64,000 nucleotides of DNA from Chordicoccus furentiruminis (GTDB lineage: Bacteria; Bacillota; Clostridia; Lachnospirales; Lachnospiraceae): positions 1,887,501 to 1,951,500 of the forward strand of contig NZ_CP048829.1 in assembly GCF_019355395.1 (NCBI RefSeq). The letters are read 5' to 3'. Of the stretch, positions 49,448-64,000 are shown one piece after another (within the stretch, counting starts at the first letter, position 1; each line of letters starts with the position of its first letter). The notes beneath the pieces were generated by a model that saw only the letters and a program-made list of their open reading frames with translations, was not told the origin of the DNA and searched no databases. Position numbers and translations under genes: made by a program.

Positions 49448-49476
49448 TTGCAAACAGGGCGGAATTTGAGTACATT
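49448..49476 (+). promoter_or_regulatory. Promoter of the RpiR-type regulator gene
   Basis: TTGCAA and TACATT are separated by 17 bases, about 50 bases before the GTG start of the regulator. Confidence 0.5.
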
Positions 49477-49525
49477 TTCCTTATCAGTGCGCGGGAAGCG
49501 GACCAATCCCGCGCCGGGAAAGGAA

Positions 49526-50413
49526 GTGAAACAGCAAAGGATGAGCGGATCGAACGGAAAAAAGGAAGGGATCCGGACGGTGGAGGATCTGATTCACCGC
49601 ATGCTTTCCGTCTCGGAGGACTCGCCGGTTTACCGGCGGATCGCCGTCTACATTGAGCAGCATTATCTTCAGGTGATTTTCATGACGGCGGAGAATCTCG
49701 CGTCCGCGCTGGGCGTCAGTCAGGGCAGCGTCTCGAAATTCTGCATCGCGCTCGGATACAGGGGATACGCGGATTTTCTGCGCAGCCTGCAGCAGATCGT
49801 GGGCAGGGAATTCACGGCGCCGAACCGCTACCATTATACGGCGTCCAGCACGCACCATACGGATGACGTGATCGAAAAGGAGATCGAAAACATCCGTTCT
49901 CTCAAGGAAACCACGCAGAGCCGGGAATATCAGACGCTGGTCGGGGATATGGCGTCCGCCGGGCATCTGCTCCTTCTCTCGGCCCGGATGTCGGCCACGC
50001 TGCTTCCGTATCTGAAATACATTCTCGACAAGCTCCGCGACAATGTGGATGTGATCACGCCGGGCGGAGAGTTCGATCTGGTGTCGTTTCACTATGATCC
50101 AACCCGGGCGCTGGTGCTGGCGATCGGACTGCCACGGTACCCGAAGGTTCTCGTCGACAAGATGAAGGAGCTGAAGAAGGCCGGATTCCGGATCGACGCG
50201 ATCACGGACAGCCGGTTCTCGCCGCTTTGCGAGGCGGCAGATCATTTTGTGCTGATCCCCACGACGGTCGCTTCGATCTTTGACATCTACAGCACACCGA
50301 TCATGTTTCTGAATCTGCTGGCGTCGGATCTGTCCCAGAAGATTCCCGGTGTCGAGGAAAGACTCTCGAAAATCGAGCGGTACGAACGGGAGAGCGGAGT
50401 CTACACGGGATAA
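49526..50413 (+). CDS. RpiR/MurR-family transcription regulator (HTH plus SIS domain)
   Basis: The protein has an N-terminal helix-turn-helix (FMTAENLASALGVSQGSVSKF) and a C-terminal sugar-isomerase-like SIS domain (LLLLSARMSATLLPYLKYIL to LIPTTVASIFDIYSTPI), 295 residues from the GTG at 49526; the ATG at 49541 is an alternative. SIS domains bind small phosphorylated or charged effectors. It is followed after 130 bases by the catabolic operon in the same direction, whose promoter region carries a palindrome, so it probably controls that operon in response to substrate or an intermediate. RpiR proteins can repress or activate. Confidence 0.88.
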   Translation: MKQQRMSGSNGKKEGIRTVEDLIHRMLSVSEDSPVYRRIAVYIEQHYLQVIFMTAENLASALGVSQGSVSKFCIALGYRGYADFLRSLQQIVGREFTAPNRYHYTASSTHHTDDVIEKEIENIRSLKETTQSREYQTLVGDMASAGHLLLLSARMSATLLPYLKYILDKLRDNVDVITPGGEFDLVSFHYDPTRALVLAIGLPRYPKVLVDKMKELKKAGFRIDAITDSRFSPLCEAADHFVLIPTTVASIFDIYSTPIMFLNLLASDLSQKIPGVEERLSKIERYERESGVYTG

Positions 50414-50542: not shown

Positions 50543-51853
50543 ATGAACACAGCACTGAACACGGCGGAAGTTCCGATGGCGGTTCGGGACGGCGGAGAAG
50601 GACGTCTCCGGATCTGTATGGAGCGGTTTATGGCGGACTTCAACGCGATGGCGTCATTCGGCCGGAATCAGAACGGCGGAATTGACCGGTCCTTCGCGTC
50701 GCCTGAGGACAGGCGGGTGAGACAGTGGATCCTCGGACGCTGGCGGGCGATGGGACTCGAGGTTTCCGTTGACCCGATCGCCAATCTCTGGGGAAGACTT
50801 GAGGGGGAGGAAAATCTTCCGCCGATCGTGATCGGATCGCATCACGACGCGGTTCCGGACGGAGGCAGGTACGACGGCGCGATGGGCGTCATGATGGCCA
50901 CGGAGGCGGCGAGAACCCTCATCGAAAACGGCGTCCGTCTCCGCCATCCGCTCTGCCTGATCTCCTTCACAGCAGAGGAACCGAATACGTTCAACCTCTC
51001 GACGCTCGGAAGCAAGGTGGTCTGCGGGAGGCTGAAGAAGGAGGATCTGGCGGAGGTCAGGGACCGGAGCGGTCAGATCAGGCTGACCGACGCGCTGAAG
51101 GAGCTGGGCGGGGATCCGGACCATCTGGAACGCGCACGGATCCGGCCGGGCGGGATTTCCTGTTTCCTCGAAGCGCACAACGAGCTCGGCCGGCAGCTCG
51201 AAAGCGCCGGGAGACGGATCAGCGGCGTGTCCATGATCACCGGACTCTACCGTGAGAAAGTCCGAATCACGGGGGAAGCCAATCACGCGGGCACCACGAT
51301 GATGCAGGACCGGAGGGACGCGTCCCTCGCGCTCGACGAGATGGCGCTGGCGCTGGAGAGGGCGGCGCGCGAGCGCCGTTCCCCGAACGTCACCGCGACG
51401 ATGGGCTATGTGAAGCTCAGTCCCAACGAGGCGAACATCATCCCGGGGAGCGCGGAAGGCGTGATCGATATCCGGACCTCGAAGGAGGAGGACCTGAACG
51501 CGCTGCTTGCGGCGCTCGACGCCGCTTCGGCGGAATGCGGCAGGAAGCGGAAGGTCCGGGTGGAAAGGGAGTGCATTCTTTCCCAGAAGGCGCAGCCGAT
51601 GGACGGAGAAATCGCGGAGGCGGTTCAGAGAGGCATCCGGGCTGTGGACGAACCGCCGGGCTCCGTGATCAGTATGGCGGGCCATGACGCCGCCAATATG
51701 CAGCGCATCGCGCCGTCCGGCATGATCTTTGTGAGGAGCGTCGGGGGGTACGGCCACTGCCGCAGGGAATACTGCAGGGAAGAGGACATGGAGAAAGCGG
51801 CCAACGCGATGCTGGAAACGATTCGGATTCTGGATGAGCAGATGGAGGACTGA
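50543..51853 (+). CDS. M20-family amidohydrolase (N-carbamoyl-L-amino acid hydrolase / allantoate amidohydrolase type)
   Basis: This 436-residue zinc-dependent hydrolase opens the N-carbamoyl (ureido) group of its substrate. The metal ligands of the family are all visible: His in GSHHDAV, Asp in GRYDGAMG, Glu in AEEPNTFN, His in FLEAHNE and the last His in GYGHCRREY. The dimerisation lid domain lies between (ITGEANHAGTTMM). It starts after GGAAAGGAGTG and is the first gene of the operon. Beside the lyase and urocanase homologues the best guess is N-carbamoyl-L-glutamate as substrate, giving glutamate, CO2 and ammonia. Allantoate is the alternative; no allantoin genes are seen. Confidence 0.85.
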   Translation: MNTALNTAEVPMAVRDGGEGRLRICMERFMADFNAMASFGRNQNGGIDRSFASPEDRRVRQWILGRWRAMGLEVSVDPIANLWGRLEGEENLPPIVIGSHHDAVPDGGRYDGAMGVMMATEAARTLIENGVRLRHPLCLISFTAEEPNTFNLSTLGSKVVCGRLKKEDLAEVRDRSGQIRLTDALKELGGDPDHLERARIRPGGISCFLEAHNELGRQLESAGRRISGVSMITGLYREKVRITGEANHAGTTMMQDRRDASLALDEMALALERAARERRSPNVTATMGYVKLSPNEANIIPGSAEGVIDIRTSKEEDLNALLAALDAASAECGRKRKVRVERECILSQKAQPMDGEIAEAVQRGIRAVDEPPGSVISMAGHDAANMQRIAPSGMIFVRSVGGYGHCRREYCREEDMEKAANAMLETIRILDEQMED

Positions 51854-51856
51854 AGG

Positions 51857-53869
51857 ATGAACGAAAACGCAATGACGATCACACTGGATGACGAACTCCC
51901 CGAGATGCCGAAGTTTGTGGAGGGGATTCGCAGAGCGCCGTCGAGAGGCTTCCGGCTGACGGAGGCGCAGACGGAAATCGCGCTGAAGAATGCGCTGCGC
52001 TATATCAATCCGAAATATCATGAACAGCTGATTCCGGAGTTCCTCGACGAGCTCTACACGAGAGGCCGCATCTACGGCTACCGGTTCCGCCCGGAGGGCC
52101 GGATCTACGGAAAGCCGATCGACGAGTACAAGGGCAAGTGTATCGAGGGCAAGGCCTTCCAGGTGATGATCGACAACAATCTTGATTTTGAGGTCGGTCT
52201 GTATCCCTACGAACTTGTCACCTACGGCGAGACCGGAAGCGTCTGTCAGAACTGGATGCAATACCGGCTCATCAAAAAATATCTCGAGAACCTCACACAG
52301 GACACGACGCTGGTGGTGGAGAGCGGCCATCCGCTGGGGCTGTTCCGTTCGAGACCGGAAGCGCCGAGAGTCACGATCACCAACGCGCTGATGGTCGGTG
52401 AATTTGACAATCTGCATGACTGGGAAATCGCCGAGGAGATGGGATGCGCCAATTACGGCCAGATGACCGCCGGCGGGTGGATGTACATCGGGCCGCAGGG
52501 AATCGTTCACGGCACCTACAACACGCTGCTGAATGCCGGCCGTCTGAAGCTCGGGATTCCGAATGAGGGAGATCTCGCCGGAAGGCTCTTCATCTCGTCG
52601 GGACTCGGCGGGATGAGCGGCGCGCAGCCCAAGGCCATCGAGATCGCCAAGGGCGTCGGCATCATCGCGGAGGTGGATTTTTCAAGGATCCAGACACGGC
52701 TGGATCAGGGCTGGGTTTCCGAGTGGTCGGACGATCTTGAGAGCTGCTTCGCCACGGCACGGAAGTATATGGAGGAGAAAAAGCCCCGTTCCATCGCCTA
52801 TTACGGCAACATCGTCGACCTGCTTCAGTACGCAGTGGATCATGAGATTCACGTTGATCTCTGTTCCGACCAGACATCCTGCCACGCGGCGTATGAAGGC
52901 GGCTACTGTCCGCAGGGGCTGACGTTCGAGGAACGCACGGCGATGCTTTCCGAGAATCCTGAGAAATACCGTGAGCTGGTGGATCTTTCTCTCCGCAGGC
53001 ATTATGCGCTGATCAAGACGCTGGTGAACCGCGGCACCTATTTCTTTGACTACGGCAACTCCTTCCTCAAATCCGTGTATGATGCCGGCGTGAAGGAGAT
53101 TTCGAAGAACGGCGTGGACGACAAGGACGGTTTCATCCTTCCTTCCTATGTGGAGGACATCATGGGACCGCAGCTGTTTGACTACGGGTACGGCCCGTTC
53201 CGCTGGGTCTGCCTGTCCGGCAAGCAGTCGGATCTGATCAAGACGGATCACGCGGCGATGGCCTGCATCGACGTGAACCGCCGCTATCAGGACCGTGATA
53301 ACTACAACTGGATCAGGGAGGCGGAGGACAATCATCTCGTCGTCGGCACACAGGCGAGAATCCTCTATCAGGATGCCGTGGGCCGCGTCAACATCGCTCT
53401 CAAATTCAACGAGATGGTCCGGAACCGCGAGATCGGCCCGGTGATGATGGGACGTGACCACCACGATGTCTCGGGTACGGATTCGCCGTTCCGCGAAACC
53501 TCGAACATCAAGGACGGCTCCAACGTGATGGCGGATATGGCCGTACAGTGCTATGTCGGCAATGCGGCCCGCGGCATGAGCCTTGTGGCGCTTCATAACG
53601 GCGGCGGCGTCGGGATCGGCAAGGCGGTCAACGGCGGCTTCGGACTCGTTCTGGACGGCTCCGAGCGCGTCGATCAGGTGATCCGGAGCGGACTGCTATG
53701 GGACGTCATGGGCGGCGTGGCCAGAAGAAACTGGGCGCGGAACGAGCACTCCATGGAGACATCGGTCGAATACAACCGGAAATATGAGGGACAGAGTCAG
53801 ATCACCATTCCGTATCTGGCGGATGATGAGATGGTTCATGACGCGGTGAAGAAGCACTTCGCGCAGTGA
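51857..53869 (+). CDS. hutU: Urocanase-family hydratase, long form (urocanate or thiourocanate hydratase)
   Basis: This 670-residue enzyme of the urocanase family uses tightly bound NAD+ as an electrophile to add water across the imidazole acrylate. The NAD-binding loop SSGLGGMSGAQPKA and the C-terminal blocks GPVMMGRDHHDVSGTDSPF and VALHNGGGVGIGKAVNGGFG are intact. It is about 110 residues longer than the common bacterial HutU (about 555), as in a clade found in some Firmicutes and spirochaetes. It lies three bases after the M20 gene. Because the lyase in this operon lacks the histidine-ammonia-lyase cofactor triad, the substrate may be thiourocanate rather than urocanate. Family certain, substrate not. 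Confidence 0.88.
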   Translation: MNENAMTITLDDELPEMPKFVEGIRRAPSRGFRLTEAQTEIALKNALRYINPKYHEQLIPEFLDELYTRGRIYGYRFRPEGRIYGKPIDEYKGKCIEGKAFQVMIDNNLDFEVGLYPYELVTYGETGSVCQNWMQYRLIKKYLENLTQDTTLVVESGHPLGLFRSRPEAPRVTITNALMVGEFDNLHDWEIAEEMGCANYGQMTAGGWMYIGPQGIVHGTYNTLLNAGRLKLGIPNEGDLAGRLFISSGLGGMSGAQPKAIEIAKGVGIIAEVDFSRIQTRLDQGWVSEWSDDLESCFATARKYMEEKKPRSIAYYGNIVDLLQYAVDHEIHVDLCSDQTSCHAAYEGGYCPQGLTFEERTAMLSENPEKYRELVDLSLRRHYALIKTLVNRGTYFFDYGNSFLKSVYDAGVKEISKNGVDDKDGFILPSYVEDIMGPQLFDYGYGPFRWVCLSGKQSDLIKTDHAAMACIDVNRRYQDRDNYNWIREAEDNHLVVGTQARILYQDAVGRVNIALKFNEMVRNREIGPVMMGRDHHDVSGTDSPFRETSNIKDGSNVMADMAVQCYVGNAARGMSLVALHNGGGVGIGKAVNGGFGLVLDGSERVDQVIRSGLLWDVMGGVARRNWARNEHSMETSVEYNRKYEGQSQITIPYLADDEMVHDAVKKHFAQ

Positions 53870-53902
53870 ACGGCATCAGATGCATTTCCAATGCGGTACA
53901 AA

Positions 53903-53933
53903 GACGTACCCGTGCAGAACGGGTGCGCCTTTT
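53903..53933 (+). terminator. Hairpin with short T-run between hydratase and transporter genes
   Basis: GACGTACCCGT pairs with ACGGGTGCGCC with one mismatch, then TTTT. It lies 34 bases after the hydratase stop and may lower expression of the downstream genes or split the operon. Confidence 0.6.
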
Positions 53934-53970
53934 GCCATATACAAGACAGGCAAACAAGGGGGTACATGAT

Positions 53971-54981
53971 ATGAGAGAGAAGAAACTGGCTGCCCTGGGG
54001 CTCGCATTCATCACCGCGTTTTCTCTTGCCGGATGCGGAAGCGCCGCTGCCACCGGCACGGCGTCATCGTCTGTCGCTTCGTCCGCGGCCGGCAAAACCG
54101 CCGCGTCCGGGAAATCCTCCGGAGATGACAAGGCTCCTCTGATCGTGGGCTCGAAGGACTTCACGGAATCCATTGTGCTGGGCGAAATTTACGCGGAGGC
54201 TTTTGAGGATAACGACGTTCCCGTCAAGCGGCAGCTGAAGCTCGGCTCCCAGGTGATCCATGATTCCATCAAGGCCGGCGACGTGGAGTTCTATCCCGAA
54301 TACACCGGAACCGGACTGAATTACCTTCACTCGGAGTTCCCGAAGAACAAGGACTACGATATTGTATTTGATCCGCAGAAAATCTACGACAACACCAAAG
54401 CCGGGTATGAGAAGGAATACGGCATCACATGGCTGAAGCCGTCTGACGTCAATGATTCGGAGGGGCTCGCGGCCTCCAGGAGCGCGGTGAAGAAGTACGG
54501 GCTTTCCACCTTCTCTGACGCGTGGGAACACTCGGCGGATCTGAAGCTCGCCGGGAACGGAGAGTTCTTCGACGAGGAATCAACCTATCCGCATCTTGTG
54601 GAGGTGTACGGAAAGGATCAGTTCAAGCACGTCACGATGGACCATACGCTTGAGTTCCAGGCCGCGAAGAGCGGGGACGTGGATGTGATTTCCGTCTACA
54701 CAACCGAGGGCAATCTCGAGTCGGACGATTACGTTGTGCTGAAGGACGACAAGCAGGCGTGGTGCACCTACTGGATCTGCCCGATCATCCGCGACGACGC
54801 GCTGGCGCGCTGGCCGAAGGCCCAGGCGATCGCGGATGCCGTCACGGCGACCCTCACCGACAAAAACGTGATCAAGATGAACGCCGATGTGGATATCGAC
54901 GGCGAGGATTACGAGGACGTCGCGCACGACTACTATGACTCCATCAAGGACAAGGTTGCGAAGGCAGTCGCCGATGAATGA
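53971..54981 (+). CDS. Quaternary-amine ABC transporter substrate-binding lipoprotein (OpuC/ProX-like)
   Basis: This 336-residue lipoprotein has the lipobox SLAGCGS, a low-complexity Ala/Ser/Gly linker and a type F solute-binding domain. The domain starts IVGSKDFTESIVLGEIYAEAF and has VEFYPEYTGTGLNYL, both hallmarks of the OpuC/OsmF family that binds betaine, carnitine, choline and related cations through aromatic residues. It starts after AAGGGGG. Two permeases and an ATPase of the same importer follow 2.5 kb later, with the lyase between. Ergothioneine is a trimethylated betaine of histidine and is carried by relatives of this group; that is my favoured substrate. Confidence 0.88.
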   Translation: MREKKLAALGLAFITAFSLAGCGSAAATGTASSSVASSAAGKTAASGKSSGDDKAPLIVGSKDFTESIVLGEIYAEAFEDNDVPVKRQLKLGSQVIHDSIKAGDVEFYPEYTGTGLNYLHSEFPKNKDYDIVFDPQKIYDNTKAGYEKEYGITWLKPSDVNDSEGLAASRSAVKKYGLSTFSDAWEHSADLKLAGNGEFFDEESTYPHLVEVYGKDQFKHVTMDHTLEFQAAKSGDVDVISVYTTEGNLESDDYVVLKDDKQAWCTYWICPIIRDDALARWPKAQAIADAVTATLTDKNVIKMNADVDIDGEDYEDVAHDYYDSIKDKVAKAVADE

Positions 54982-55912
54982 CGCATTTTCTGAGATCTTC
55001 GGTGTTCCGGAAGCAGCAGAGCCGTTTCTTTCCCTGATGGTTCCGGAACCCTTCCGGAGACTGATCGCTTCCCTCGGCGCGTCGTTTACGGAGGCGGACG
55101 CGGCCGGATTCCTGAGGGTTCCTCAGGAGGAAGCGGGCCGTGTTCTTGAGGAAGGCTATCATCTGAGTATTCTGGACCGGGACCCGGAGCGGCCGGACCT
55201 CTTCAGAGCCGGAAGCTTCTATGACCGGCTCGGGGTGTTCTGCCAGTACGAACCGGAGAAGTGGTATTCCGTTCCGCGCGTATTCCGCGATCAGATCAAC
55301 CGCTGGTATATGGACGAATACATCCGCCGGAACCAGCCGCTGTTTGAGAACGGAACGCGGAAGGATCTGGCGCTTCCGCTTGAGGAGACGCTGGCCTTCA
55401 TCGACCGGCTGGACGGCCCGTTCACGGTGCGTCCCTGCGACTGCCGGAACATTTTCGACAACTGCCGTCATATGCGGGAGACATGCATCGGGATCGGACC
55501 GGCGGGCGTCAATTCCTCCGCGGACCGGGGACAGGCGCGTGAGATCACGAAGGAAGAGGCGAAGGAGCTTGTCCGGGCCTGCGACAAAGACGGGCTGATG
55601 CATACGGTGGACGCTTCCGGACACGCAATCTGCAACTGCTGCGGGGACTGCTGCTTCGAATACCGGTCCGCGCTCGAGACGGGAAAGATCGGTCCCGGAC
55701 CGGGCAGCTATATCACGACGCTCTATATCGCGGAATGGGACCGGACGCGATGCGTGAACTGCGGGCTGTGCGCGAAGCGGTGTCATCTCGCCGCCTTCAC
55801 GAAGCTCGACGGAGAGGTGGCGTTTCATCCGGAGCGGTGCGCGGGATGCGGAATCTGCTCGACGGCCTGTCCGAAGAAAGCCATTGTCATGAAACGGCGT
55901 GATGAGGAGTGA
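54974..55912 (+). CDS. Multi-cysteine 4Fe-4S protein
   Basis: This 312-residue soluble protein overlaps the lipoprotein gene by 8 bases. Its C-terminus carries two ferredoxin motifs (CVNCGLCAKRC and CAGCGICSTACPKKA), so two [4Fe-4S] clusters. Before them are further cysteine groups (CDCRNIFDNC, later HAICNCCGDCCFEY) that could hold another cluster or bind a substrate; HTVDASGHAICNCCGDCC is a motif seen in Fe-S proteins linked to reductive pathways. The N-terminal 130 residues look like a winged helical domain. It probably passes electrons to or from an oxidoreductase in this pathway, perhaps the molybdoenzyme or a thiourocanate-linked reductase. The exact role is unknown. Confidence 0.75.
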   Translation: MNDAFSEIFGVPEAAEPFLSLMVPEPFRRLIASLGASFTEADAAGFLRVPQEEAGRVLEEGYHLSILDRDPERPDLFRAGSFYDRLGVFCQYEPEKWYSVPRVFRDQINRWYMDEYIRRNQPLFENGTRKDLALPLEETLAFIDRLDGPFTVRPCDCRNIFDNCRHMRETCIGIGPAGVNSSADRGQAREITKEEAKELVRACDKDGLMHTVDASGHAICNCCGDCCFEYRSALETGKIGPGPGSYITTLYIAEWDRTRCVNCGLCAKRCHLAAFTKLDGEVAFHPERCAGCGICSTACPKKAIVMKRRDEE

Positions 55913-55918
55913 TGCGTG

Positions 55919-57475
55919 ATGAAGCTTCCGGCTGCGATGTGTCAGGATGTCATACTGGATGAACGGGATCTGACGCCGGAACAGTATATAGCGGTCGTGC
56001 TCGGCGGCGCACGGCTCGGATTCGGAGAGCAATTCGTTTCGAGGATCCAGGCGTCGCGTGACATTGTGGAACGCTTTCTCAGGGAGGAGCGGCCGGTCTA
56101 CGGCGTGACGACCGGCGTCGGCGCGAACGTCCGGTATTCCGTGCCGGAGGAAGAGGCAGCGAAGCTGCAGGAAAACATCATCCGCACGCACGCGGTGTCC
56201 GTCGGCTCCCCGATGTCCGAGGAAGAGACGAGGGGCATGATTCTCTCCATCATCTGCAATCTGGGACACGGATGCTCGGGTGTGCGTCCCGTGCTCATCG
56301 AGAGACTGAGGGATTATCTGAATCTCCGCCTTGTGCCGTATGTGCCGCGCGACGGTTCGGTCGGTTATCTCGCGCCGGAGGCGCATATGGCGCTGACCCT
56401 GGTCGGAGAGGGATCGTTCCTTCGGGACGGAAAGAGAACTCCGGCGCGGGAGGTCCTCCGGGAGCGGCATCTTCCTCCGCTTACGCTGGGATGCAAGGAG
56501 GGACTGGCACTGATTACGGGGACCACCTCGGCGGACGCGTACGGGCTGACGGCCGTGTACAGGGCGCAGCTGGCGCTCGGGAACGCGGTGATCGCCGGGT
56601 GCATGACCTTCGAGGCGCTTCACGCGACCGTCAACGCACTCGACGCGGAGGCGCAGAGCCGGAAGCGGTATCCGGAGCAGCAGCACGCGGCAGCTCTGAT
56701 GAGAAGCATCCTCTCCGGAAGCGGGATCTGCGGGAAATATCGGGACAGCCATGTGCAGGACGCCTGCGCGGTCCGCACGATGCCGCAGATCTTCGGCGCG
56801 GCGGAGCGGACGTTCTCGGACGCCGAGAAGACGTTTGTTCAGGAAATGCAGTCCTGCTCCGATAACCCGCTGATTCTTCCCACGGAGGACGGAAGCGGAA
56901 GAGCGGCGATGAACGGCAATTTTGACGGATCCTTCATCGCGATGTACGCGGATCTCTTATCCATCGGCATCGCGAAAACAGCGGGGCTTGCCGAGCGCCT
57001 CACGGACCGGCTGATGAATTTCCATCTGAATGAGGGGCTTCCGGCGTTTCTTGTGCCGGATCCGGGCGTCAACAACGGCTTTATGATCGTGCAGTACACG
57101 CAGGCCGCGCTCGTCTCCGAGCTGAAGCTTCTCGCGGTGCCGGCGTCGGTCGATTCGGTCAGCACCTGCGCCGGCCAGGAGGACCCGGTTTCGATGGCGT
57201 ACCGGGCATGCCAGAAAGCGTATGAAGCTTCGGACAAGCTGCTTGACATCGTCGCGATGTGGATTCTCTGCGCGGCGCAGGCAGAGGATCTGAGAGCGGA
57301 TGAGGAAAAAGGATCGGCTGTTCTCGAAGCCGTCCGGAAGAAAATCCGGGAATGCATTCCTTTCGTCACAGAAGATGTCAGTCTGTATCCGATGATCGAG
57401 TCGGCGCAGCGTCTTGTCCGGAGCGGCGCGCTGATCGAAGAGGTGCAGAAGAGGATCGGACCGATGACGCTGTAG
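55919..57475 (+). CDS. MIO-less histidine-ammonia-lyase homologue, candidate ergothionase
   Basis: This 518-residue protein is of the aromatic amino acid lyase fold. Normal enzymes have GSVGASGDLAPLAHM, in which Ala-Ser-Gly cyclises to the MIO electrophile; here it reads GSVGYLAPEAHM (residues 146-157) and the triad is gone. The usual Asn of the NGT box is Thr (LITGTT) and the VQDPYSLR box is VQDACAVR (Gln280 kept, Tyr lost). The general base Tyr61 (YGVTTGVG), His91 and the Glu in GQEDPVSM remain. An enzyme without MIO should not deaminate histidine, but a trimethylammonium group is a good leaving group and needs no MIO, as in ergothionase. It lies between importer genes. ATG at 55919 follows GGAGTG. 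Confidence 0.8.
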   Translation: MKLPAAMCQDVILDERDLTPEQYIAVVLGGARLGFGEQFVSRIQASRDIVERFLREERPVYGVTTGVGANVRYSVPEEEAAKLQENIIRTHAVSVGSPMSEEETRGMILSIICNLGHGCSGVRPVLIERLRDYLNLRLVPYVPRDGSVGYLAPEAHMALTLVGEGSFLRDGKRTPAREVLRERHLPPLTLGCKEGLALITGTTSADAYGLTAVYRAQLALGNAVIAGCMTFEALHATVNALDAEAQSRKRYPEQQHAAALMRSILSGSGICGKYRDSHVQDACAVRTMPQIFGAAERTFSDAEKTFVQEMQSCSDNPLILPTEDGSGRAAMNGNFDGSFIAMYADLLSIGIAKTAGLAERLTDRLMNFHLNEGLPAFLVPDPGVNNGFMIVQYTQAALVSELKLLAVPASVDSVSTCAGQEDPVSMAYRACQKAYEASDKLLDIVAMWILCAAQAEDLRADEEKGSAVLEAVRKKIRECIPFVTEDVSLYPMIESAQRLVRSGALIEEVQKRIGPMTL

Positions 57476-57497
57476 AGTTCCGCGAGGGAGGTTTACT

Positions 57498-58145
57498 ATG
57501 TTCAGTCAGATTTACGGCTACTATCTGGAGCATATCGGCGAATACTGGTCGGATGTCGCGGCCCATCTCGAGATTTCCTTCGGTGTGGCGGCGCTGGCGG
57601 CGCTGATCGGGATTCCGCTCGGCATTGTCTGCGCCCTGTATCCGAAGCACTCGGGCTGGATCACCGGTCTTGTGAACGTGATGCGGATCATTCCTTCGCT
57701 GGCGCTGATGCTGCTGATGATCCCGCTGATCGGGATCGGACGGGTGCCCGCGTTCATCGCGCTGATGATCATCGCGATTCCGCCGGTTCTGATCAACACG
57801 ACGGCCGGGTTCCTGAAAACGGATTCCGCGCTTCTGGAGACGGCCGGCGGGATGGGGATGGATCAGAAGCAGATCTTCAGAAAGGTTCAGTTTCCGCTTG
57901 CGATCCCGCTGATTTTCACGGGGATCCGCACCTCGATCGTCGAGACGATCGCCTCCGCGACCATCGCGACGTATATCGGGGCCGGCGGCCTCGGAAATCT
58001 GGTGTTTACCGGCCTTGGCACAAGCCGCACCTATATCACGCTGCTCGGCGGTCTGACGATCGCGCTGATCTCGATCGTGACAGACTGTATTTTGGCGGTG
58101 GTTCAGAGCCGTCTGGTGCGGCGCTTTGGAATGGAGGAGGTATGA
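57498..58145 (+). CDS. Quaternary-amine ABC transporter permease 1 (OpuCB-like)
   Basis: This 215-residue inner-membrane permease has about five to six transmembrane helices. The ATPase-coupling EAA loop of the betaine family reads ETAGGMGMDQKQIFRKVQFPLAIPLIFTG, with IGAGGLGNLVFTGL after it. It starts after GGGAGG, 22 bases after the lyase, and its end overlaps the ATPase start region. It pairs with the second permease at 59122 to form the channel. Confidence 0.9.
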   Translation: MFSQIYGYYLEHIGEYWSDVAAHLEISFGVAALAALIGIPLGIVCALYPKHSGWITGLVNVMRIIPSLALMLLMIPLIGIGRVPAFIALMIIAIPPVLINTTAGFLKTDSALLETAGGMGMDQKQIFRKVQFPLAIPLIFTGIRTSIVETIASATIATYIGAGGLGNLVFTGLGTSRTYITLLGGLTIALISIVTDCILAVVQSRLVRRFGMEEV

Positions 58146-58147
58146 CG

Positions 58148-59116
58148 ATGTCCGAAACAGCGATCTCTTTTCAGCATGTGTACAAACGGTTTCCCGGAAT
58201 GGAGAACTACGCCGTGGAGGATGTTTCACTCGACATTCACGACGGGGAGTTTGTCACGATCCTCGGGACGTCCGGTTCCGGCAAGACAACCATGATGAAG
58301 ATGGTCAATCAGCTCTACAGCATCACGTCCGGGGACATCATCTTCTGCGGGCAGAGCATCAGGAAGCTGGATCCCGTGGAGCAGAGGCGGAAGATCGGAT
58401 ACGTCGTGCAGGCCGGCGGGCTGTTTCCGCATATGACCGTGGAGGACAACATCGCGGTCGTCCCGAATATCCTCAAATGGGATGCGGCCAGAATCAGCAG
58501 CCGGGTCGATGAGCTGCTCAGGATGGTCAATCTTGATCCCGCGACGTACCGGAAACGCTTCCCGAGACAGCTGTCCGGAGGCCAGCAGCAGCGGGTCGGC
58601 ATCGCCCGGGCGATGGCGGCCGACCCGAGCATTATGCTGATGGACGAGCCATTCGGCGCGATCGACGCGATCACGAGAAATACGCTTCAGCAGGAGGTTC
58701 TGAGGCTCCAGAAGCAGACCGGCAAGACGATCCTCTTCGTGACGCACGACATCGAGGAGGCGTTCCTCCTCGGCACCCGCGTGATCATCATGGACGCGGG
58801 CAAGCTCCAGCAGTTCGATACGCCGGATCAGATCATGATGCATCCGGCGAACGATTTCGTGAGGAAGTTTGTCGCAGCGGATGATCCGATCACCCGGATG
58901 AAGAGAATTCATGTGTCCGCCGTCATGAAGGAGACGGATACGATGCCGTCCGGCGCGGCCGTCGTGGCTTCGGACGCGTCGCTTGAGGATCTGATGATTC
59001 TCTTCCTCGAGGACCGCGGAAGAACCGTCTATGTGAAGGATGACCGGAACGATCAGATCCGGGGCAAGGTGACATGGAATGATCTGGCCGCGCTTGCGGG
59101 AGAAGAGACGAGGTAA
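58148..59116 (+). CDS. Quaternary-amine ABC transporter ATPase (OpuCA-like)
   Basis: The ATP-binding subunit shows Walker A GTSGSGKTT, the Q-loop VVQAGGLFPHM, signature LSGGQQQRVGIARA, Walker B IMLMDEPFGAID and the switch His in FVTHDIEEA. The C-terminal 80 residues are a shortened regulatory (CBS-like) domain. I chose the ATG at 58148, seven bases after GGAGGAGG; the ATG at 58142 overlaps the permease stop as ATGA. It energises uptake through the two permeases with the lipoprotein at 53971. Confidence 0.92.
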   Translation: MSETAISFQHVYKRFPGMENYAVEDVSLDIHDGEFVTILGTSGSGKTTMMKMVNQLYSITSGDIIFCGQSIRKLDPVEQRRKIGYVVQAGGLFPHMTVEDNIAVVPNILKWDAARISSRVDELLRMVNLDPATYRKRFPRQLSGGQQQRVGIARAMAADPSIMLMDEPFGAIDAITRNTLQQEVLRLQKQTGKTILFVTHDIEEAFLLGTRVIIMDAGKLQQFDTPDQIMMHPANDFVRKFVAADDPITRMKRIHVSAVMKETDTMPSGAAVVASDASLEDLMILFLEDRGRTVYVKDDRNDQIRGKVTWNDLAALAGEETR

Positions 59117-59121
59117 CCGCT

Positions 59122-59772
59122 ATGGAGAAATTTCTGCGCTATGGTTCCCGTCACTGGGACGATATGATTCAGGATGTCCTCGACCATCTGGAGCTCTGCG
59201 GGCTGTCGCTTCTGATCGGGCTTGCGATCGCGGTTCTGATCTGCCTTCTGCTGATGAAGCTCCGCTGGCTGAGAAAGCCGGTTGTGGCGGTGCTCGGCGC
59301 GCTCTACGCGATCCCGAGCATGGCGTTTTTCGCGATTCTGATCCCGATTCTGGGGCTCGGCAAGCCGAACGCAATCGTGGTGCTCGTGATCTATTCCCAG
59401 TTCGTGCTGGTGCGCAATATCCTCGCGGGTTTCGACGGCGTGGACCGGTCCACCCTGGAGGCGGCCAGAGGAATGGGGATGACCGGCACGCAGATGTTTC
59501 TCCGGGTGCAGCTTCCGCTTGCGCTTCCGGTGATCATCAGCGGGATCCGGATCGCCGCGATCGTTACGATCAGCAGCGCGACGATTGCCCAGACCATCAA
59601 TGCCGGCGGGCTCGGCGTTCTGCTTTTCGACGGACTGCGGACCGTCAACGTCGGGATCATTCTCTGGGGGACGATTCTGACCGGCGCGCTGGCGCTGATC
59701 GTGAACATGCTGCTGAGCCGGCTTGAGCGGTATTCCTACCGCCGCGCCAGAGGCGAGATTGTCAGTGTATGA
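59122..59772 (+). CDS. Quaternary-amine ABC transporter permease 2 (OpuCD-like)
   Basis: This 216-residue membrane permease is related to the first one, with its EAA loop EAARGMGMTGTQMFLRVQLPLALPVIISG and an INAGGLGVLLFDG segment. It is separated from the ATPase by five bases. Together the four genes make a full OpuC-type importer (binding protein, two permeases, ATPase). Confidence 0.9.
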   Translation: MEKFLRYGSRHWDDMIQDVLDHLELCGLSLLIGLAIAVLICLLLMKLRWLRKPVVAVLGALYAIPSMAFFAILIPILGLGKPNAIVVLVIYSQFVLVRNILAGFDGVDRSTLEAARGMGMTGTQMFLRVQLPLALPVIISGIRIAAIVTISSATIAQTINAGGLGVLLFDGLRTVNVGIILWGTILTGALALIVNMLLSRLERYSYRRARGEIVSV

Positions 59773-59787
59773 AAGGATGGACAGGCC

Positions 59788-60384
59788 ATGAATTATACCA
59801 TCACGATAACGAGACAGTTCGGCTCGCTGGGCCGTCCGATCGCGCGGGAGATCGCCGACGCCCTGAAGATTCACTATTATGACCGCGACATCGTGGAGCA
59901 GGTTTCCCAGAAGCTTCATTATCCCGTGCGGCTGATCAGCGACGAGGAAGAGCGGGCGAAGACGAAATTCTGGCGGATGAAGTATCCGCTTGGCCGGGGC
60001 ACTACGGCCAGACAGGATGAGATTTTTGCGGTGGAACGGGATATCATCACGGACATCGCCCGCACGGAAAGCTCCGTGATCGTCGGCCGCTGCAGCGACT
60101 ATATTCTGGAGAACCAGCCCGGCTGTCTGCATGTCTATATCTACGCTCCGTACCGGGACCGGATCCGGAACTGCATCGAGACGCTTCATATGCAGGAAGA
60201 GGAAGCCATTGACATGATCCGGAGCGTGGATGAAGCCAGAGAATCCTTCCATCTCCGCTACGCCCGGTACAAGCCGGAGGACATTCTGCACAAGGATCTT
60301 CTGATCAACAGCAGTGTGCTGGGTGTGGACGGAACCGCGAAGCATATCGTGGAAATCGCGGAGGACGCCTTCGGATTACGGTGA
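59788..60384 (+). CDS. Cytidylate-kinase-like family protein
   Basis: This 198-residue protein of the cytidylate_kin2 family has the start ITITRQFGSLGRPIAREIADAL, where the usual P-loop is altered, then YDRDIVEQVSQ and SSVIVGRCSDYIL. Members are common near transport or regulatory genes in Clostridia and their substrate is mostly not known. It sits between the importer and the molybdoenzyme genes and is translated from ATG after AAAGGATGG. Its job in this operon is unknown; a nucleotide-linked kinase or a regulator is possible. Confidence 0.8.
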   Translation: MNYTITITRQFGSLGRPIAREIADALKIHYYDRDIVEQVSQKLHYPVRLISDEEERAKTKFWRMKYPLGRGTTARQDEIFAVERDIITDIARTESSVIVGRCSDYILENQPGCLHVYIYAPYRDRIRNCIETLHMQEEEAIDMIRSVDEARESFHLRYARYKPEDILHKDLLINSSVLGVDGTAKHIVEIAEDAFGLR

Positions 60385-60404
60385 GAAACGCCGGGAGCGG
60401 GAGC

Positions 60405-62717
60405 ATGCGGGAGTATCGGTATATCGGAAAAGCGACATCGAATGACCGCGCGTACGGCAAGGTGACGGGACACGCGGTCTATACGTCGGACATGCAGTCG
60501 GTGGACATGCTGTATCTGGCTTATAAACCGTCTGCGGTCGGACACGGCCTCATCGCGTCGATCGACGCCTCCGGCGCGTGGCTTCCCGGCGTCCGGGCGA
60601 TTTATACGTATCAGAATACGCCGGACCGGTACTTTGACAGAGGACGGGTCAGCCGGGCAGAGGCGGACAGCGTTCCGAATCAGGAGAAGCTGTTTGACCG
60701 GGAAGTGCGCTTCTTCGGGGAGCGGGTCGCCGCGGTCGTCGCGGAATCGGAAGAGACCGCGCGCAGAGCGTGCCGGCTGATCCGGGTTGAGTATCAGCCT
60801 CTGCCGCTTGTCATGACGCAGGACGAAGCCCGGTCGGACGGAGCGCCGAAGCTCCACCGCGATGGCAATCTGTATCCGGCTGACGGCAAACCGTACCGGA
60901 GAACTCTGGGAAACTATGACGGGGCGAAGGCGGATGTCGTGGTCCGGACGGCGATGCACGCCGGGCGGATGACGCATATGTGCATGGAGACGCAGTCCGT
61001 GCGCGCCCGGTTTGACAAGAGCGACGGGCGTCTTACCGTCTGGAGCGGATGCCAGACGGCCTACGGCGTCCGTTCTACCGTCGCGGATCTGCTCGGCCTT
61101 CCGTACAACCGAGTCTGTGTCGTCAAGGCGCTGATGGGAGGGTCCTTCGGCGTCAAGCAGGAGATGGTTCTGGAACCTCTTGTCGCCTTCGCGGCCTTTG
61201 ATCTCCGGGCCGACGTCCTCTGTCACTTCACCAGGGAGGAGCAGATCACCGGAACGCTGCTCCGGCATGACCTCGACTGCACGGTTGAGACGAAATGGAC
61301 GAGGGACGGGACGATTCAGGGACTTAAGGTGGAGATGAACCTTGATGCGGGCGCGTATCAGACCGTAAGCCCGTCCTACCTCCGGGGGATCGGAAACAAG
61401 CTCACGAAGACCTACCGGATTCCCAACGTGGAATATCTGGGACAGTCCTACTGCACCACCACACCCTGCAACGGCAGCTTCCGGAGCTGGGGCACAGCGG
61501 AGCTCGCGATCGGTCTTGAGCCGAACCTGAACGAGGCGGCCCGGATCCTCGGCATCGACCCGGTGGAGCTGAGGCTGCGCAACGTGCATCAGCCGTTTGA
61601 CCGGGACAGGATGAACCGGGCTTCCGTATCGAACGCAAGATTCAGGGATGTGCTGGAGAAGGGCAGGGAGCGGTTCGGATGGGATCAGAAAGTGGCCGCC
61701 TGCAGGGAGAGGAACAGACAGGGCGGACGGTACCGCTACGGCTGCGGGATGGCCTTATGTTCCCACACCAGCTCCTTTTATCCGTATCTGAACGAGCGGG
61801 CCGACTGCATTCTCCGTATGGCGGACGACGGATCGGCGATCCTCACGATGCCGATCCATGACCATGGCGGCGGCACCGTGACGGCGATGAAGAAGATCTG
61901 CGCGGAAGCGCTGCAGATCGATCCCGGCCGGATCGAGGTGCATGAGGCTGACACCGATGTGACGGGCTACGATTACGGATGCTACGCGAGCCGGTCCGTC
62001 TATGTGTTCGGTCAGGCGGTCATCCGGTGCGCGGAAGAGATGATCGAAAAGGGACGGACGCTGGCCTCGATGCTTCTCAAATGCCATCCGGAGACGATCC
62101 GTTATACGGACGGCTTCTTCTCCTCCGAAATGAACCCGAAGATCCGGAAGGAATGGCGTGAAATCTGGGAATACGCGGTTTTTTCACGGGGGGAAGATTT
62201 GTTCTGCGCCGTCACGGGTCATGCTTCGGCCAATCCGGGGACCGCGGCCGCTCATTTTACCGAGGTCCGGGTCGATACGTACACAGGGCAGGTGAAGGTG
62301 CTTCATTGTCTCTCGGTTCATGACATCGGGAAGAGGATCAATCCGGATCTCTGCTTCGGCCAGATCGGCAGCGGAATCCAGCAGGGAATCGGCTGGGCTC
62401 TCCGTGAAGAGATCAAGATCGATCCGAAGACCGGACAGACACTGATCACAGGGTTCAGGAACTATGAGATGTGCAATGCAGCCGATATGCCGGCATACGA
62501 CGCGCTGTTTATCGAGGACGCGGAGCCGACCGGCCCGTTCGGCGCGAAGGGGCTCGGCGAAGTGGTGACGGCGCCGGTGGCGCCGGCCTGCGTCGAGGCG
62601 GTGAATCAGGCTCTCGGGCTGCATCTCAACCGCTGCCCGCTGACGCCTCCGGTGATTCTTGAGGCTCTCGCGGGCCGGCCGGATCCGGAGGCGGCCGGAT
62701 TCCGGACCGCGGACTGA
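60405..62717 (+). CDS. Molybdenum hydroxylase large (molybdopterin) subunit, xanthine-dehydrogenase family
   Basis: This 770-residue subunit binds the molybdopterin cofactor. Visible motifs are the substrate-domain start RAYGKVTGHAVYTSDM, GGSFGVKQEM for the first cofactor loop, NGSFRSWGTAELAIG for the second and the catalytic Glu in GAKGLGEVVTAP near the C-terminus. The ATG at 60405 follows GGGAGCGGGAG; a GTG at 60381 overlaps the previous stop. The enzyme hydroxylates an N-heterocyclic or aldehyde carbon using water and passes electrons to the [2Fe-2S] and FAD subunits that follow. In this operon it could oxidise or desulfurise the (thio)imidazole ring product; purine oxidation is the alternative. 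Confidence 0.88.
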   Translation: MREYRYIGKATSNDRAYGKVTGHAVYTSDMQSVDMLYLAYKPSAVGHGLIASIDASGAWLPGVRAIYTYQNTPDRYFDRGRVSRAEADSVPNQEKLFDREVRFFGERVAAVVAESEETARRACRLIRVEYQPLPLVMTQDEARSDGAPKLHRDGNLYPADGKPYRRTLGNYDGAKADVVVRTAMHAGRMTHMCMETQSVRARFDKSDGRLTVWSGCQTAYGVRSTVADLLGLPYNRVCVVKALMGGSFGVKQEMVLEPLVAFAAFDLRADVLCHFTREEQITGTLLRHDLDCTVETKWTRDGTIQGLKVEMNLDAGAYQTVSPSYLRGIGNKLTKTYRIPNVEYLGQSYCTTTPCNGSFRSWGTAELAIGLEPNLNEAARILGIDPVELRLRNVHQPFDRDRMNRASVSNARFRDVLEKGRERFGWDQKVAACRERNRQGGRYRYGCGMALCSHTSSFYPYLNERADCILRMADDGSAILTMPIHDHGGGTVTAMKKICAEALQIDPGRIEVHEADTDVTGYDYGCYASRSVYVFGQAVIRCAEEMIEKGRTLASMLLKCHPETIRYTDGFFSSEMNPKIRKEWREIWEYAVFSRGEDLFCAVTGHASANPGTAAAHFTEVRVDTYTGQVKVLHCLSVHDIGKRINPDLCFGQIGSGIQQGIGWALREEIKIDPKTGQTLITGFRNYEMCNAADMPAYDALFIEDAEPTGPFGAKGLGEVVTAPVAPACVEAVNQALGLHLNRCPLTPPVILEALAGRPDPEAAGFRTAD

Positions 62718-62732
62718 GGGGGGAGGCCCGGT

Positions 62733-63200
62733 ATGAGGATTTCGTTTGTACTGAATGGAAAAAAGAGGACGGACGACGTGGACCCCGCCAGACGGCTCCT
62801 TGACTATCTCCGGGAGGATCTCCATCTGACCGGAACAAAGGAAGGGTGCGGCGAAGGCGAATGCGGCGCCTGCACGGTGATTCTGAACGGCAGGGCGGTT
62901 CACGCGTGTCTGACGCTGACCGGTCAGATCGACGGCTGCGAGCTTCTGACGATCGAAGGGCTGGAAGCGGAAGACGGCAGCCTGAGCCCGCTTCAGCAGT
63001 CCTTTGCCGATCACGGGGCGATCCAGTGCGGATTCTGCACGCCGGGGATGGTGATGTCCGCCCAGGCGCTGCTGATGGAAAATCCGCATCCGGATGAGGC
63101 GGAGATCCGGAACGCGATTGCGGGCAATATCTGCCGCTGTACCGGTTACCGCGAGGTGATCCGGGCGATCCAGGCTGTCAGCGGCCCGGAGGACGGATAA
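62733..63200 (+). CDS. Molybdenum hydroxylase [2Fe-2S] subunit
   Basis: The 155-residue protein carries two clusters. The N-terminal plant-ferredoxin type shows CGEGECGACTVIL with a further Cys in HACLTL. The C-terminal four-helix type shows QCGFCTPGMVMSAQAL and NICRCTGYREV. It is separated from the large subunit by 15 bases and passes electrons between molybdenum and the FAD subunit. The length is typical. Confidence 0.95.
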   Translation: MRISFVLNGKKRTDDVDPARRLLDYLREDLHLTGTKEGCGEGECGACTVILNGRAVHACLTLTGQIDGCELLTIEGLEAEDGSLSPLQQSFADHGAIQCGFCTPGMVMSAQALLMENPHPDEAEIRNAIAGNICRCTGYREVIRAIQAVSGPEDG

Positions 63201-63212
63201 GGAGGCGTCGGT

Positions 63213-64000
63213 ATGGAGGTGAAAACGTATCTGCAGCCACAGAGTCTCGCCGGTTTATCGGACGCGCTTCTTCAGATGGAGGAGGGTTCGAAGATACTGG
63301 CCGGCGGTACGGATCTCATCATCCGGATCCGGAACCGCGAGGGGACGATCCCGTTACTGCTCTCTGTCTGCAGAGTCCGGGAACTGTACGGCATCTTCGG
63401 AGAAGCGGACGGACTCGTGATCGGCGCGATGGAAAATTTCGCTTCGATCGCGTCGGACAGCCGGGTGAGAAACGAGCCGTATCTTGAGGCGCTGGGGATG
63501 GCATGCGCCCGTGTCGGATCCCGTCAGATCCGGAACAAGGGCACAATCGGCGGAAATCTCGGCAACGCTTCAGTGGCCGGCGACATGATCCCGGTTCTGA
63601 CCATGTACCACGCGGAGGCGGAGATTATGAGGGGAGGCGGCGCTCTCCGCCGCCTCCCGGTTGAAGCGCTGATCACGGGCGTTTCAAGGACGGCGCTGAG
63701 GCCGGATGAGATCATCACAAGGATCCGGATTCCGATGAGGCCCGGACGGCGGAGCTGCTTTCTGAAGCTGGGCGGAAGAGAGGCAGTCACGGTCGCGGAG
63801 CTGTCCCTCTGCATGACATGGCGGACGGAGAAGGGTGTGTTTGCCGGCGTGGAGGGCGTGCTCGGGGCGGTCGACGCGCATCCGGTCGTGCTGGATGAGG
63901 CGGCGGAGATCGTCGACGGCACGGCAGGGGGAGGGCAGGTATGGGGCCGGCTGGCGGATTCTCTGTCCGGCCGGATTTCAGCCATCCGGATGAAACGGAC
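63213..64000 (+). CDS. Molybdenum hydroxylase FAD-binding subunit (3' end outside window)
   Basis: The frame is open from ATG after AAGGAGG to the last base of the window. The FAD-binding motifs ILAGGTDLIIRIR near residue 30 and GTIGGNLGNAS near residue 113 are intact, followed by the start of the CO-dehydrogenase flavoprotein C-terminal domain (LKLGGREAVTVAELSLC). It follows the [2Fe-2S] subunit by 12 bases. The order large, [2Fe-2S], FAD is complete, and the rest of the pathway may lie just beyond the window. Confidence 0.9.
   Translation, partial: MEVKTYLQPQSLAGLSDALLQMEEGSKILAGGTDLIIRIRNREGTIPLLLSVCRVRELYGIFGEADGLVIGAMENFASIASDSRVRNEPYLEALGMACARVGSRQIRNKGTIGGNLGNASVAGDMIPVLTMYHAEAEIMRGGGALRRLPVEALITGVSRTALRPDEIITRIRIPMRPGRRSCFLKLGGREAVTVAELSLCMTWRTEKGVFAGVEGVLGAVDAHPVVLDEAAEIVDGTAGGGQVWGRLADSLSGRISAIRMKR

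Follow-up and report, generated by a model that had tools for sequence, protein, structure and literature searches.

A MIO-less histidine-ammonia-lyase homologue in a candidate operon for Hut-type breakdown of a histidine betaine, most likely hercynine

The window analysed here, a stretch of 64,000 nucleotides probably derived from a gut bacterium, contains an operon that appears to serve Hut-type catabolism of a histidine betaine, with hercynine the likeliest candidate, by elimination of trimethylamine to urocanate; we put the probability of this reading at roughly 0.57. Gene content, protein families, loss of MIO, clade membership and gene neighbourhoods are observed, and from these we infer every reaction and substrate. 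An OpuC-type ABC importer would take up trimethylated histidine, most likely hercynine (N-alpha-trimethylhistidine), from which the MIO-less lyase would remove trimethylamine by 1,2-elimination, leaving urocanate; with so good a leaving group as trimethylamine, the lyase would not need MIO. HutU would convert urocanate to imidazolonepropionate, HutI would open the ring to give formiminoglutamate, the HutF-like amidohydrolase would remove ammonia and the M20 amidase would free glutamate. The role of XdhABC is the least certain step, and may be sulfur removal from an ergothioneine-type substrate or oxidation of an amidine or imidazole carbon.

Comparison of open reading frames with profiles placed the named genes on the + strand, each matching its family (Table 1), in agreement with the co-directional cluster of the preliminary description. 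Operon neighbours overlap by at most 8 bases or are separated by at most 22, with two exceptions, namely 129 bases before the M20 amidase gene and about 100 before the OpuAC binding protein gene. The RpiR-type protein upstream is a possible regulator, judging by its position only. The operon continues for about 5 kb beyond the window into a downstream stretch (L002), where a gene on the opposite strand comes after the acetolactate-synthase-like (ALS-like) gene. The preliminary description had placed hydantoin-ring opening tentatively beyond 64 kb; the ring opener encoded there is HutI. Composition does not support a recent transfer: G+C content is 60.5% in the operon and likewise in L002:7055-19500, against 45-53% in 4-kb blocks over the initial 44 kb of the window. 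XdhABC, the 4Fe-4S protein and the kinase-like and ALS-like genes are unexplained by the hercynine reading.

Table 1. Genes of the operon and its upstream neighbour. L002 positions lie outside the window (window position = L002 + 62000).
Feature	Position	Strand	Profile match
RpiR-type protein (HTH_6 + SIS)	49436..50413	+	Pfam HTH_6, SIS
M20 hydantoinase/carbamoylase-type amidase	50543..51853	+	TIGR01879
HutU, long-type urocanate hydratase, 670 aa	51857..53869	+	TIGR01228
OpuAC substrate-binding protein, quaternary-amine ABC importer	about 53971..54981	+	PF04069, 173 bits
4Fe-4S protein	54974..55912	+	Fer4
MIO-less histidine-ammonia-lyase homologue	55916..57475	+	PF00221, 491 bits
ABC permease, choline/ProW-like	57498..58145	+	PF00528, 88 bits
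ABC ATPase, ProV-like	58142..59116	+	TIGR01186, 298 bits, below cut-off 326.6
Second ABC permease, ProW-like	59122..59772	+	PF00528, 74 bits
Cytidylate-kinase-like protein	59788..60384	+	PF13189, 144 bits
XdhA, molybdenum subunit, xanthine-dehydrogenase-type enzyme	60381..62717	+	MoCoBD_1, MoCoBD_2
XdhC, [2Fe-2S] subunit	62733..63200	+	Fer2_2, 117 bits
XdhB, FAD subunit	63213..64000 (cut by window end; stop at L002:2124)	+	FAD_binding_5, 124 bits
HutF-like amidohydrolase	L002:2131-3477		
Imidazolonepropionase HutI	L002:3474-4718		TIGR01224, 439 bits
HutD	L002:4715-5320		
ALS-like protein	L002:5317-6981		

The lyase is the sole PF00221 match in a profile search of the genome. Its top profile scores are to histidine ammonia-lyase (HAL) models, true HALs are its closest relatives of solved structure (278 bits; 34-35% identity to the best PDB matches) and its structure model (pLDDT 89.4) has the HAL fold. 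Against TIGR01225 (HutH) it reaches 460 bits, under the cut-off of 539, and it lacks the MIO-forming Ala-Ser-Gly of HutH: the motif reads GSVGYLAP, as against GS(V/L)GASGDLAP in true lyases, with the MIO triplet and the following Asp replaced by a single Tyr in the window lyase and its clade. The preliminary description had recognised the loss of MIO, and a leaving group better than ammonia is indeed plausible. In the lyase tree the window protein falls within a clade of 30 rows (support 100/100), all of which lack the triplet and retain the true-lyase residues Tyr62, His92, Gln281, Arg287, Met390 and Glu422 (window numbering); most of the HAL pocket residues checked are, to judge by sequence, kept in the clade. 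The His and Glu of HAL serve the imidazole of the substrate. HutH, the closest known system by sequence, has the fold and most checked pocket residues in common with the window lyase; the difference, besides the replaced triplet, is that Tyr 284 and His 337 are lost in the latter.

Following the NF motif, residue 337 is a His throughout the 91/91 MIO lyases, Asp (29) or Glu (1) among clade members and Glu in 6/6 ergothionases. Position 394 is Tyr in the window and in 30/30 clade members and, in all six ergothionase genes, Lys, the active-site Lys384 of ergothionase. Ergothionase of the Treponema denticola type (PDB 6s7j, 6s7q) resembles the window lyase in its HAL fold (TM 0.83 by query length), in its lack of MIO, in the acid after the NF motif and in trimethylamine elimination, which we propose for the window lyase too. 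However, identity is 23-24%, the MIO triplet is replaced differently, the product proposed for the window lyase is urocanate, and the ergothionase (6s7j) and window-lyase clades are separate in the tree; this separation, together with Tyr in place of Lys, tells against the earlier suggestion of an ergothionase. In the best tree the two clades lost MIO independently, but an AU test does not reject a single joint origin (p 0.357) and we do not claim two losses. The branch of the window lyase is long (1.32) and its pocket contains the odd residues Cys284 and Thr201, suggesting that its substrate may differ from those of its relatives. We know of no activity or ligand for any clade member. A literature search, weak in subscription journals and thus not proof of absence, found no published description of the clade, no hercynine lyase among the papers listed and nothing linking ergothionase with xanthine dehydrogenase.

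Betaine transporter genes are enriched around relatives of the lyase. A BCCT transporter is encoded within 5 kb of 11/28 clade lyases but only 1/63 MIO lyases, and this one shares its locus with a clade lyase. Counted by locus, the figures are 9/24 and 0/62 (Fisher p 2.8e-6), for BCCT queries that were drawn from clade and ergothionase loci and may favour their kin. Neither BCCT nor OpuAC was found within 5 kb of 17 of the 28, and OpuAC near none of them (the window lyase is not among the 28). HutU or HutI is within 5 kb of only 5/28 clade lyases, compared with 30/63 (HutU) and 27/63 (HutI) MIO lyases; in L050, L060, L062 and L063, every HutU encoded in one locus with a clade lyase passes the hutU model and fails both thiourocanate models. 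A single stretch of L060 encodes a true lyase, BCCT, the MIO-less lyase, HutU and HutI, together with a HutG-like protein that scores 184 bits against a cut-off of 229. One lyase from each of two subclades is found in L055, L058 and L111, an indication that there is more than one substrate, and four genomes (G130, G175, G252, G430) contain both a window-clade lyase and an ergothionase, which suggests that these two have different substrates. Homologues of the 4Fe-4S protein could be aligned from the vicinity of clade lyases in L038, L061, L111 and L218. MttB-like genes lie near the clade lyase in L038 and L218, although MttB is not enriched within 5 kb (1/28 clade, 3/63 MIO lyases); as a consumer of the released trimethylamine it was discarded, having no match in the genome.

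The later genes fit a Hut route. The urocanase passes TIGR01228 (hutU; 431 bits, cut-off 375) and its best solved relative is the urocanate hydratase 6uek (578 bits). It fails the S-methyl-thiourocanate hydratase model (331 bits, cut-off 880) and also the thiourocanate hydratase model NF058530 (292 bits, cut-off 930, compared without a known thiourocanate hydratase as positive control), contrary to the latter function previously suggested for it. By profile score, the ring opener of the operon is the imidazolonepropionase HutI (cut-off 298 for TIGR01224) and not a hydantoin-ring opener; hydantoinase models give the top score for no operon protein, and the broad TIGR01879 is passed by the M20 amidase only (302 bits, cut-off 204). 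The top equivalog model of this amidase is ErtE, N-carbamyl-L-glutamate amidohydrolase (NF058540; 352 bits, under the cut-off of 520), and the amidase scores 372 bits against allantoate amidohydrolase PRK09290.1-5 (cut-off 399). We propose that it performs the last step, from N-formyl- or N-carbamoyl-glutamate to glutamate. FTCD was rejected as the next step after a genome profile search returned no match. The presence of a carbamoyl hydrolase had been held to argue against a histidine operon, a point weakened both by the score below the ErtE cut-off and by L062 (Microbacteriaceae), whose HutU-M20-HutF-HutI cluster also includes an M20 amidase. With that cluster the window operon has HutU, M20 amidase, HutF-type protein and HutI in common; it differs in the addition of the MIO-less lyase, quaternary-amine importer and molybdoenzyme, in a genome without true HutH, and in a HutF-like protein below the HutF cut-offs (PRK09229.1-2, 244 of 362 bits; TIGR02022, 194 of 413), the best model for which is 5'-deoxyadenosine deaminase (283 bits, under the cut-off of 522).

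The importer belongs to the quaternary-amine family, as first described. Its binding protein has no strong OpuAC competitor elsewhere in the genome (runner-up 23 bits) and scores 115-117 bits against EgtUC chains, placing it in the same family as the ergothioneine ABC transporter EgtU; binding protein and permease are, however, separate in the window. The ergothioneine determinants of EgtU are G244 and F293, plus a cage and R379, according to PMC9732360. With positions counted from that text by way of alignments with Lmo1422 and with sensor chains, not EgtUC itself, the window protein has Phe and Tyr at G244 and F293 and Asp/Glu/Glu at N339, Y341 and R379, and retains K242, E375, Y419 and Y443. 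On these alignments the published ergothioneine-specificity residues are absent, at odds with the earlier suggestion of an ergothioneine-type binding protein. Hercynine does not account for the Glu that the window protein has at ligand positions 341 and 379 (EgtU numbering).

An ergothioneine operon with a Hut ending, in which the lyase is an ergothionase or XdhABC acts first, and XdhABC desulfurates so that urocanate reaches HutU and HutI, seems to us rather unlikely, although several observations favour it. A molybdenum-hydroxylase gene lies no further than about 2 kb from the lyase gene in 8/8 ergothionase-clade loci examined (L040, L041, L043, L044, L045, L046, L187, L223); XdhA, B and C are present in six, L187 has XdhA and B with XdhC not among its listed ORFs, and L043 has a fused, distant XdhA. 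L223 combines BCCT-like, ergothionase, XdhCBA and hutU-type urocanase genes in one stretch, the set required if desulfuration were to precede hydration. A review (PMC13405746) describes H2S release by a thiourocanate desulfhydrase from gut anaerobes. Our candidate for this enzyme is the ergothionase-linked XdhABC. Phylum-wide XdhA matches scored above ergothionase-linked ones and were added to the final XdhA tree, where the window sequence belongs to a group of five, sister to seven ergothionase-linked rows (union of 12 at 100/100), and because of this sister relationship ergothioneine is still a possible substrate. Yet the seven form one clade excluding the window (100/99), and an AU test against the window XdhA alone joining them gave p 0.0002, so that membership was rejected. 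The tree for that test was built without gen_L138 (wrong frame) and the distant gen_L143, gen_L145, gen_L155 and ERGfused_L043; gen_L142 and gen_L149 were also left out of the final tree. An initial tree that included gen_L138 did not resolve the relationships. Furthermore, the stretches read around the XdhA rows nearest the window's (L186, L219, L220, L222) contain no lyase, and the active-site loops of the window and ergothionase-linked types differ (YGCYASR vs SAGTQASR). The position of the lyase outside the ergothionase clade, its Tyr394, the four genomes with both lyase types and the altered binding protein also speak against this alternative.

That the lyase acts on a different betaine, or on a histidine betaine whose ring is modified, for example S-methyl-ergothioneine, releasing trimethylamine or another good leaving group, is improbable; the co-occurring subclades and the pocket changes Cys284 and Thr201 would suit it, but HutU fails the S-methyl model and the His and Glu that serve imidazole in HAL are kept in 30/30. 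Ordinary histidine use, with a degenerate or inactive HAL and an importer for an unrelated compound, would account for the true HALs among the best solved relatives and for the later Hut genes. We regard it as very unlikely: loss of MIO is fixed in the clade alongside conserved Tyr62, Gln281, Arg287 and Glu422, unlike decay, and the L060 stretch has kept a true lyase as well. The Burkholderia route put forward in the preliminary description, through thiourocanate, thiohydantoin and hydantoin propionate and N-carbamoylglutamate to glutamate, draws on ErtE as the top equivalog of the M20 amidase; with the ErtE cut-off missed, HutU failing the thiourocanate-hydratase model, HutI well above its own cut-off and no best-scoring hydantoinase, it is scarcely credible.

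Fungi make hercynine and ergothioneine, and mushrooms bring both into the diet. Hercynine occurs in Agaricus, according to PMC9103826. There is perhaps an even chance that the clade represents a second widespread MIO-free lyase of the HAL fold besides ergothionase, a hercynine trimethylamine-lyase that feeds urocanate into the Hut route and ranges from Bacillaceae and Actinomycetota to Lachnospiraceae. Dietary histidine betaines would in that case yield trimethylamine by way of a source not recorded so far. If clade members do release trimethylamine, current lists of gut enzymes that form it are incomplete; searches can pass the clade over, because the highest scores of the window lyase are to histidine ammonia-lyase models. 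GSVGYL without ASG, with an acid after NF, would then provide a sequence mark for re-annotation, and the betaine used by each clade member would be directly testable.

The co-directional cluster that the preliminary description placed from position 50543 onwards is indeed present on a single strand, and the operon runs beyond the window (bases 1887501-1951500 of one 3.27-Mb contig) to a point where an opposite-strand gene starts; its last gene overlaps HutD. G+C in 4-kb blocks is 45-53% over window positions 1-44000 and 58-62% over the rest, with the downstream chromosome similar. The first 44 kb also carries transposase-, restriction- and pilin-like genes (by eye on ORF starts), so that part may be an acquired island.

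Operon genes in order, with positions in the window or in downstream DNA (L002; window position = L002 + 62000), followed by one lyase from a separate contig; scores are bits, with curated model cut-offs in brackets
Feature	Position	Match
(RpiR-type protein)		
M20 amidase		
HutU		TIGR01228, 431 (375)
OpuAC binding protein		ProX/OpuC type
4Fe-4S protein, cysteine-rich N-terminal part	54974-55912	
MIO-less lyase, 519 aa	55916-57475	PF00221, 491
Permease		
ATPase		
Permease		
Cytidylate_kin2		
XdhA		
XdhC		
XdhB		
HutF-like protein		5'-deoxyadenosine deaminase, 283 (522); formimidoylglutamate deiminase, 244 (362)
HutI		TIGR01224, 439 (298)
HutD		Pfam, 79
ALS-like (acetolactate-synthase-like) enzyme	L002:5317-6981	783 (509)
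Operon end	L002:6981	
GTIGGL-type lyase	L048:5723-7258	

The lyase is the sole PF00221 match in its genome, and none of 36 other genomes of the genus has a match. Relatives, taken from 393 genomes of the class plus 80 loci kept of at least 584, fall into ASG/SSG lyases and GS(V/L)(G/A)YL lyases, plus one outlier contig labelled as phage (L048, GTIGGL). An alignment of 137 pieces and the window lyase (133 rows once identical ones were dropped) comprises 91 MIO lyases, 30 GSVGYL-type lyases (the clade, window included), 11 ergothionase-like rows representing six genes, and one other. The divergent lyases of the class are ergothionase relatives: that of L044 matches 6s7j along its length (859 bits), and L040 ends in a fragment that shares 68-70% identity with two ergothionase-clade members. 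Tyr62, His92, Gln281, Arg287 and Glu422 are identical in all 91 MIO lyases, 30 clade lyases and six distinct ergothionase genes. Met390 is constant in the MIO and clade lyases and Gly or Ala in the six ergothionases; position 394 is Tyr in 84 MIO lyases (Val in seven) and all 30 clade lyases, and Lys in the ergothionases. At position 284, the counterpart of Tyr280 in P. putida HAL, all MIO lyases have Tyr, the ergothionases Leu, and the clade Leu (23), Tyr (5), Ile (1) or Cys (1); position 201 is correspondingly Asn, Ser, and Ser (17), Asn (12) or Thr (1), the sole Cys and sole Thr belonging to the window lyase. Position 337, His in every MIO lyase, is Asp in 29 clade lyases and Glu in the other and in all six ergothionases, an acid that we infer assists in holding the trimethylammonium group.

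A 59-row tree took in all 30 clade lyases, the six ergothionases, 22 MIO lyases chosen from the 91 to cover their diversity, and L048. In it one 100/100 branch sets off the clade and another the ergothionases, the two groups lie apart, and the window lyase, formerly proposed as an ergothionase, belongs to the clade. Constraining both groups and L048 to be one is not rejected (AU p 0.357), so one and two losses of MIO are not distinguishable. The window branch is long (1.32), its nearest rows being L058 (47% identity) and genome G175. An AlphaFold2 model (22 sequences; pLDDT 89.4, pTM 0.91) has HAL structures as its top PDB matches (TM 0.88) and ergothionase 6s7j at rank 19 (TM 0.83). Clade lyase and ergothionase co-occur in four genomes (G130, G175, G252, G430); G300 has a clade lyase and one HAL-like match. 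The L048 lyase, a third MIO-less form, adjoins an SSF symporter; L047 and L048 are labelled Bacteriophage sp., yet appear to be bacterial DNA.

Genes within 5 kb were counted for 28 clade lyases in wide loci and 63 MIO lyases. BCCT transporters are enriched near clade lyases (11/28 vs 1/63, the single case being L060, which also carries a clade lyase); HutU (5/28 vs 30/63) and HutI (4/28 vs 27/63) are scarcer there, and MttB is not enriched (1/28 vs 3/63). Sigma-54 activators lie near ten clade lyases and one MIO lyase, and clade neighbours also include SolA-like oxidases (5), 4Fe-4S homologues (4), SSF (3) and XdhA (2); OpuAC is within 5 kb of none of the 28 or the 63. Outside that count are seven further clade lyases in five family genomes, among whose loci L214 and L215 have BCCT, and L218 has a 4Fe-4S protein, a weak SSF match, a pair of MttB-like genes scoring 220 and 217 bits against a cut-off of 525, and aconitase-X-like sequence, for which the cis-3-hydroxyproline dehydratase model gives 143 bits (cut-off 700). 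By eye only, aconitase-X-like genes were also seen near the lyase in L213, farther away in L217 and on the same stretch in L063. Five Bacillaceae loci (L049-L053) have a SolA-type N-methyl-amino-acid oxidase within 5 kb (476 in L050, cut-off 257) and an MFS-like transporter adjoining the lyase. The window 4Fe-4S protein recurs near the lyase in L038, L061, L111 and L218. Two clade lyases share a locus in L055, L058, L064, L111 and L215; those of L055, L058 and L111 are one per subclade, which may reflect two substrates or a hetero-oligomer. Gene by gene, L215 (family genome G689) shares 83-100% protein identity with L064, the contig of 'Candidatus Blautia merdipullorum', which makes Lachnospiraceae the probable source of the window.

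Judged by its gene families, the cluster would run a Hut route that starts at urocanate and ends at glutamate. The hydratase had been taken as thiourocanate-type; HutU instead passes the urocanate hydratase model, is closest among solved structures to 6uek, a long urocanate hydratase (578 bits), and fails the thiourocanate (292 bits, cut-off 930) and S-methyl-thiourocanate hydratase (331, cut-off 880) models. For each of the six HutU proteins scored from clade or ergothionase genomes (L043, L050, L060, L062, L063, L223), the score clears the hutU cut-off and stays below those of the thiourocanate models. Where a hydantoin-ring opener was thought possible past 64 kb, the genes include HutI, an imidazolonepropionase that solved imidazolonepropionases also match. 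The HutF-like protein is ambiguous, and a search of the genome for FTCD gave no match. Among the best 25 of 27 models, the M20 amidase exceeds a broad hydantoinase/carbamoylase cut-off and falls below the others, that of ErtE (N-carbamyl-L-glutamate amidohydrolase) included; such an amidase can be part of a Hut cluster, because the Microbacteriaceae locus L062 has one together with HutF, HutI and HutU, each above a cut-off, near a clade lyase.

Ergothioneine, which would yield thiourocanate, is an unlikely substrate, and what speaks for it is the molybdoenzyme. A molybdenum-hydroxylase gene lies close by in all eight ergothionase-clade loci examined, which also carry BCCT genes (Pfam for L040 and L041, BLAST for L187 and L223) or genes resembling them by eye only (L043 to L046); the review PMC13405746 names a thiourocanate desulfhydrase, citing Feng et al. 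2025, and the ergothionase-linked XdhABC may be that enzyme. The best other match to the window XdhA in the 393 class genomes is in G430 (L186, 551 bits), beside molybdate-transport- and molybdopterin-like genes (by eye), followed by G195, G175, G153 and G130 (485-462 bits), each adjoining an ergothionase. Phylum-wide matches reach 533 bits; L223 has an ergothionase, and the stretches read of L219-L222 and L224 hold no lyase. In a 25-row tree the window XdhA groups with those of L186, L219, L220 and L222 (97/97), and the sister of this group is the set of seven ergothionase-linked rows (100/99; union 100/100), with the purine-type rows, so classed by eye, outside. One loop is SAGTQASR in those ergothionase-linked rows that were compared (L044: DAAGTQASR) and YGCYASR in the window. 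Overall, the window XdhABC is kin to the ergothionase-linked enzyme, whose activity it may or may not share. By eye, genes of corrinoid and mutase type occur in L220 and L222; near its XdhA, L220 also has a relative of the window 4Fe-4S protein (40% over a part).

Against ergothioneine stand the lyase's place apart from the ergothionases and the binding protein. Residues of the ergothioneine transporter EgtU, from PMC9732360, were placed on the latter by our own alignment mapping: Lys242, Thr296, Glu375, Tyr419 and Tyr443 are kept, and Ile243 is changed to Asp, Gly244 to Phe, Phe293 to Tyr, Asn339 to Asp, Tyr341 to Glu, Arg379 to Glu and Asp381 to Ser. That paper gives Gly244 and the Phe/Tyr switch as ergothioneine determinants; the transporter comparison called for earlier thus finds Gly244 and Phe293 replaced, and high-affinity EgtU-type binding is unsupported.

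We read the whole, from its gene families and residues, as a putative Hut-type histidine-betaine operon in a bacterium whose home would be the gut, with a lyase from a MIO-less clade for which the literature searched offered no description. This lyase probably (about 0.8) eliminates trimethylamine from some histidine betaine, and hercynine, which would give urocanate, is by a little over even odds its main substrate.
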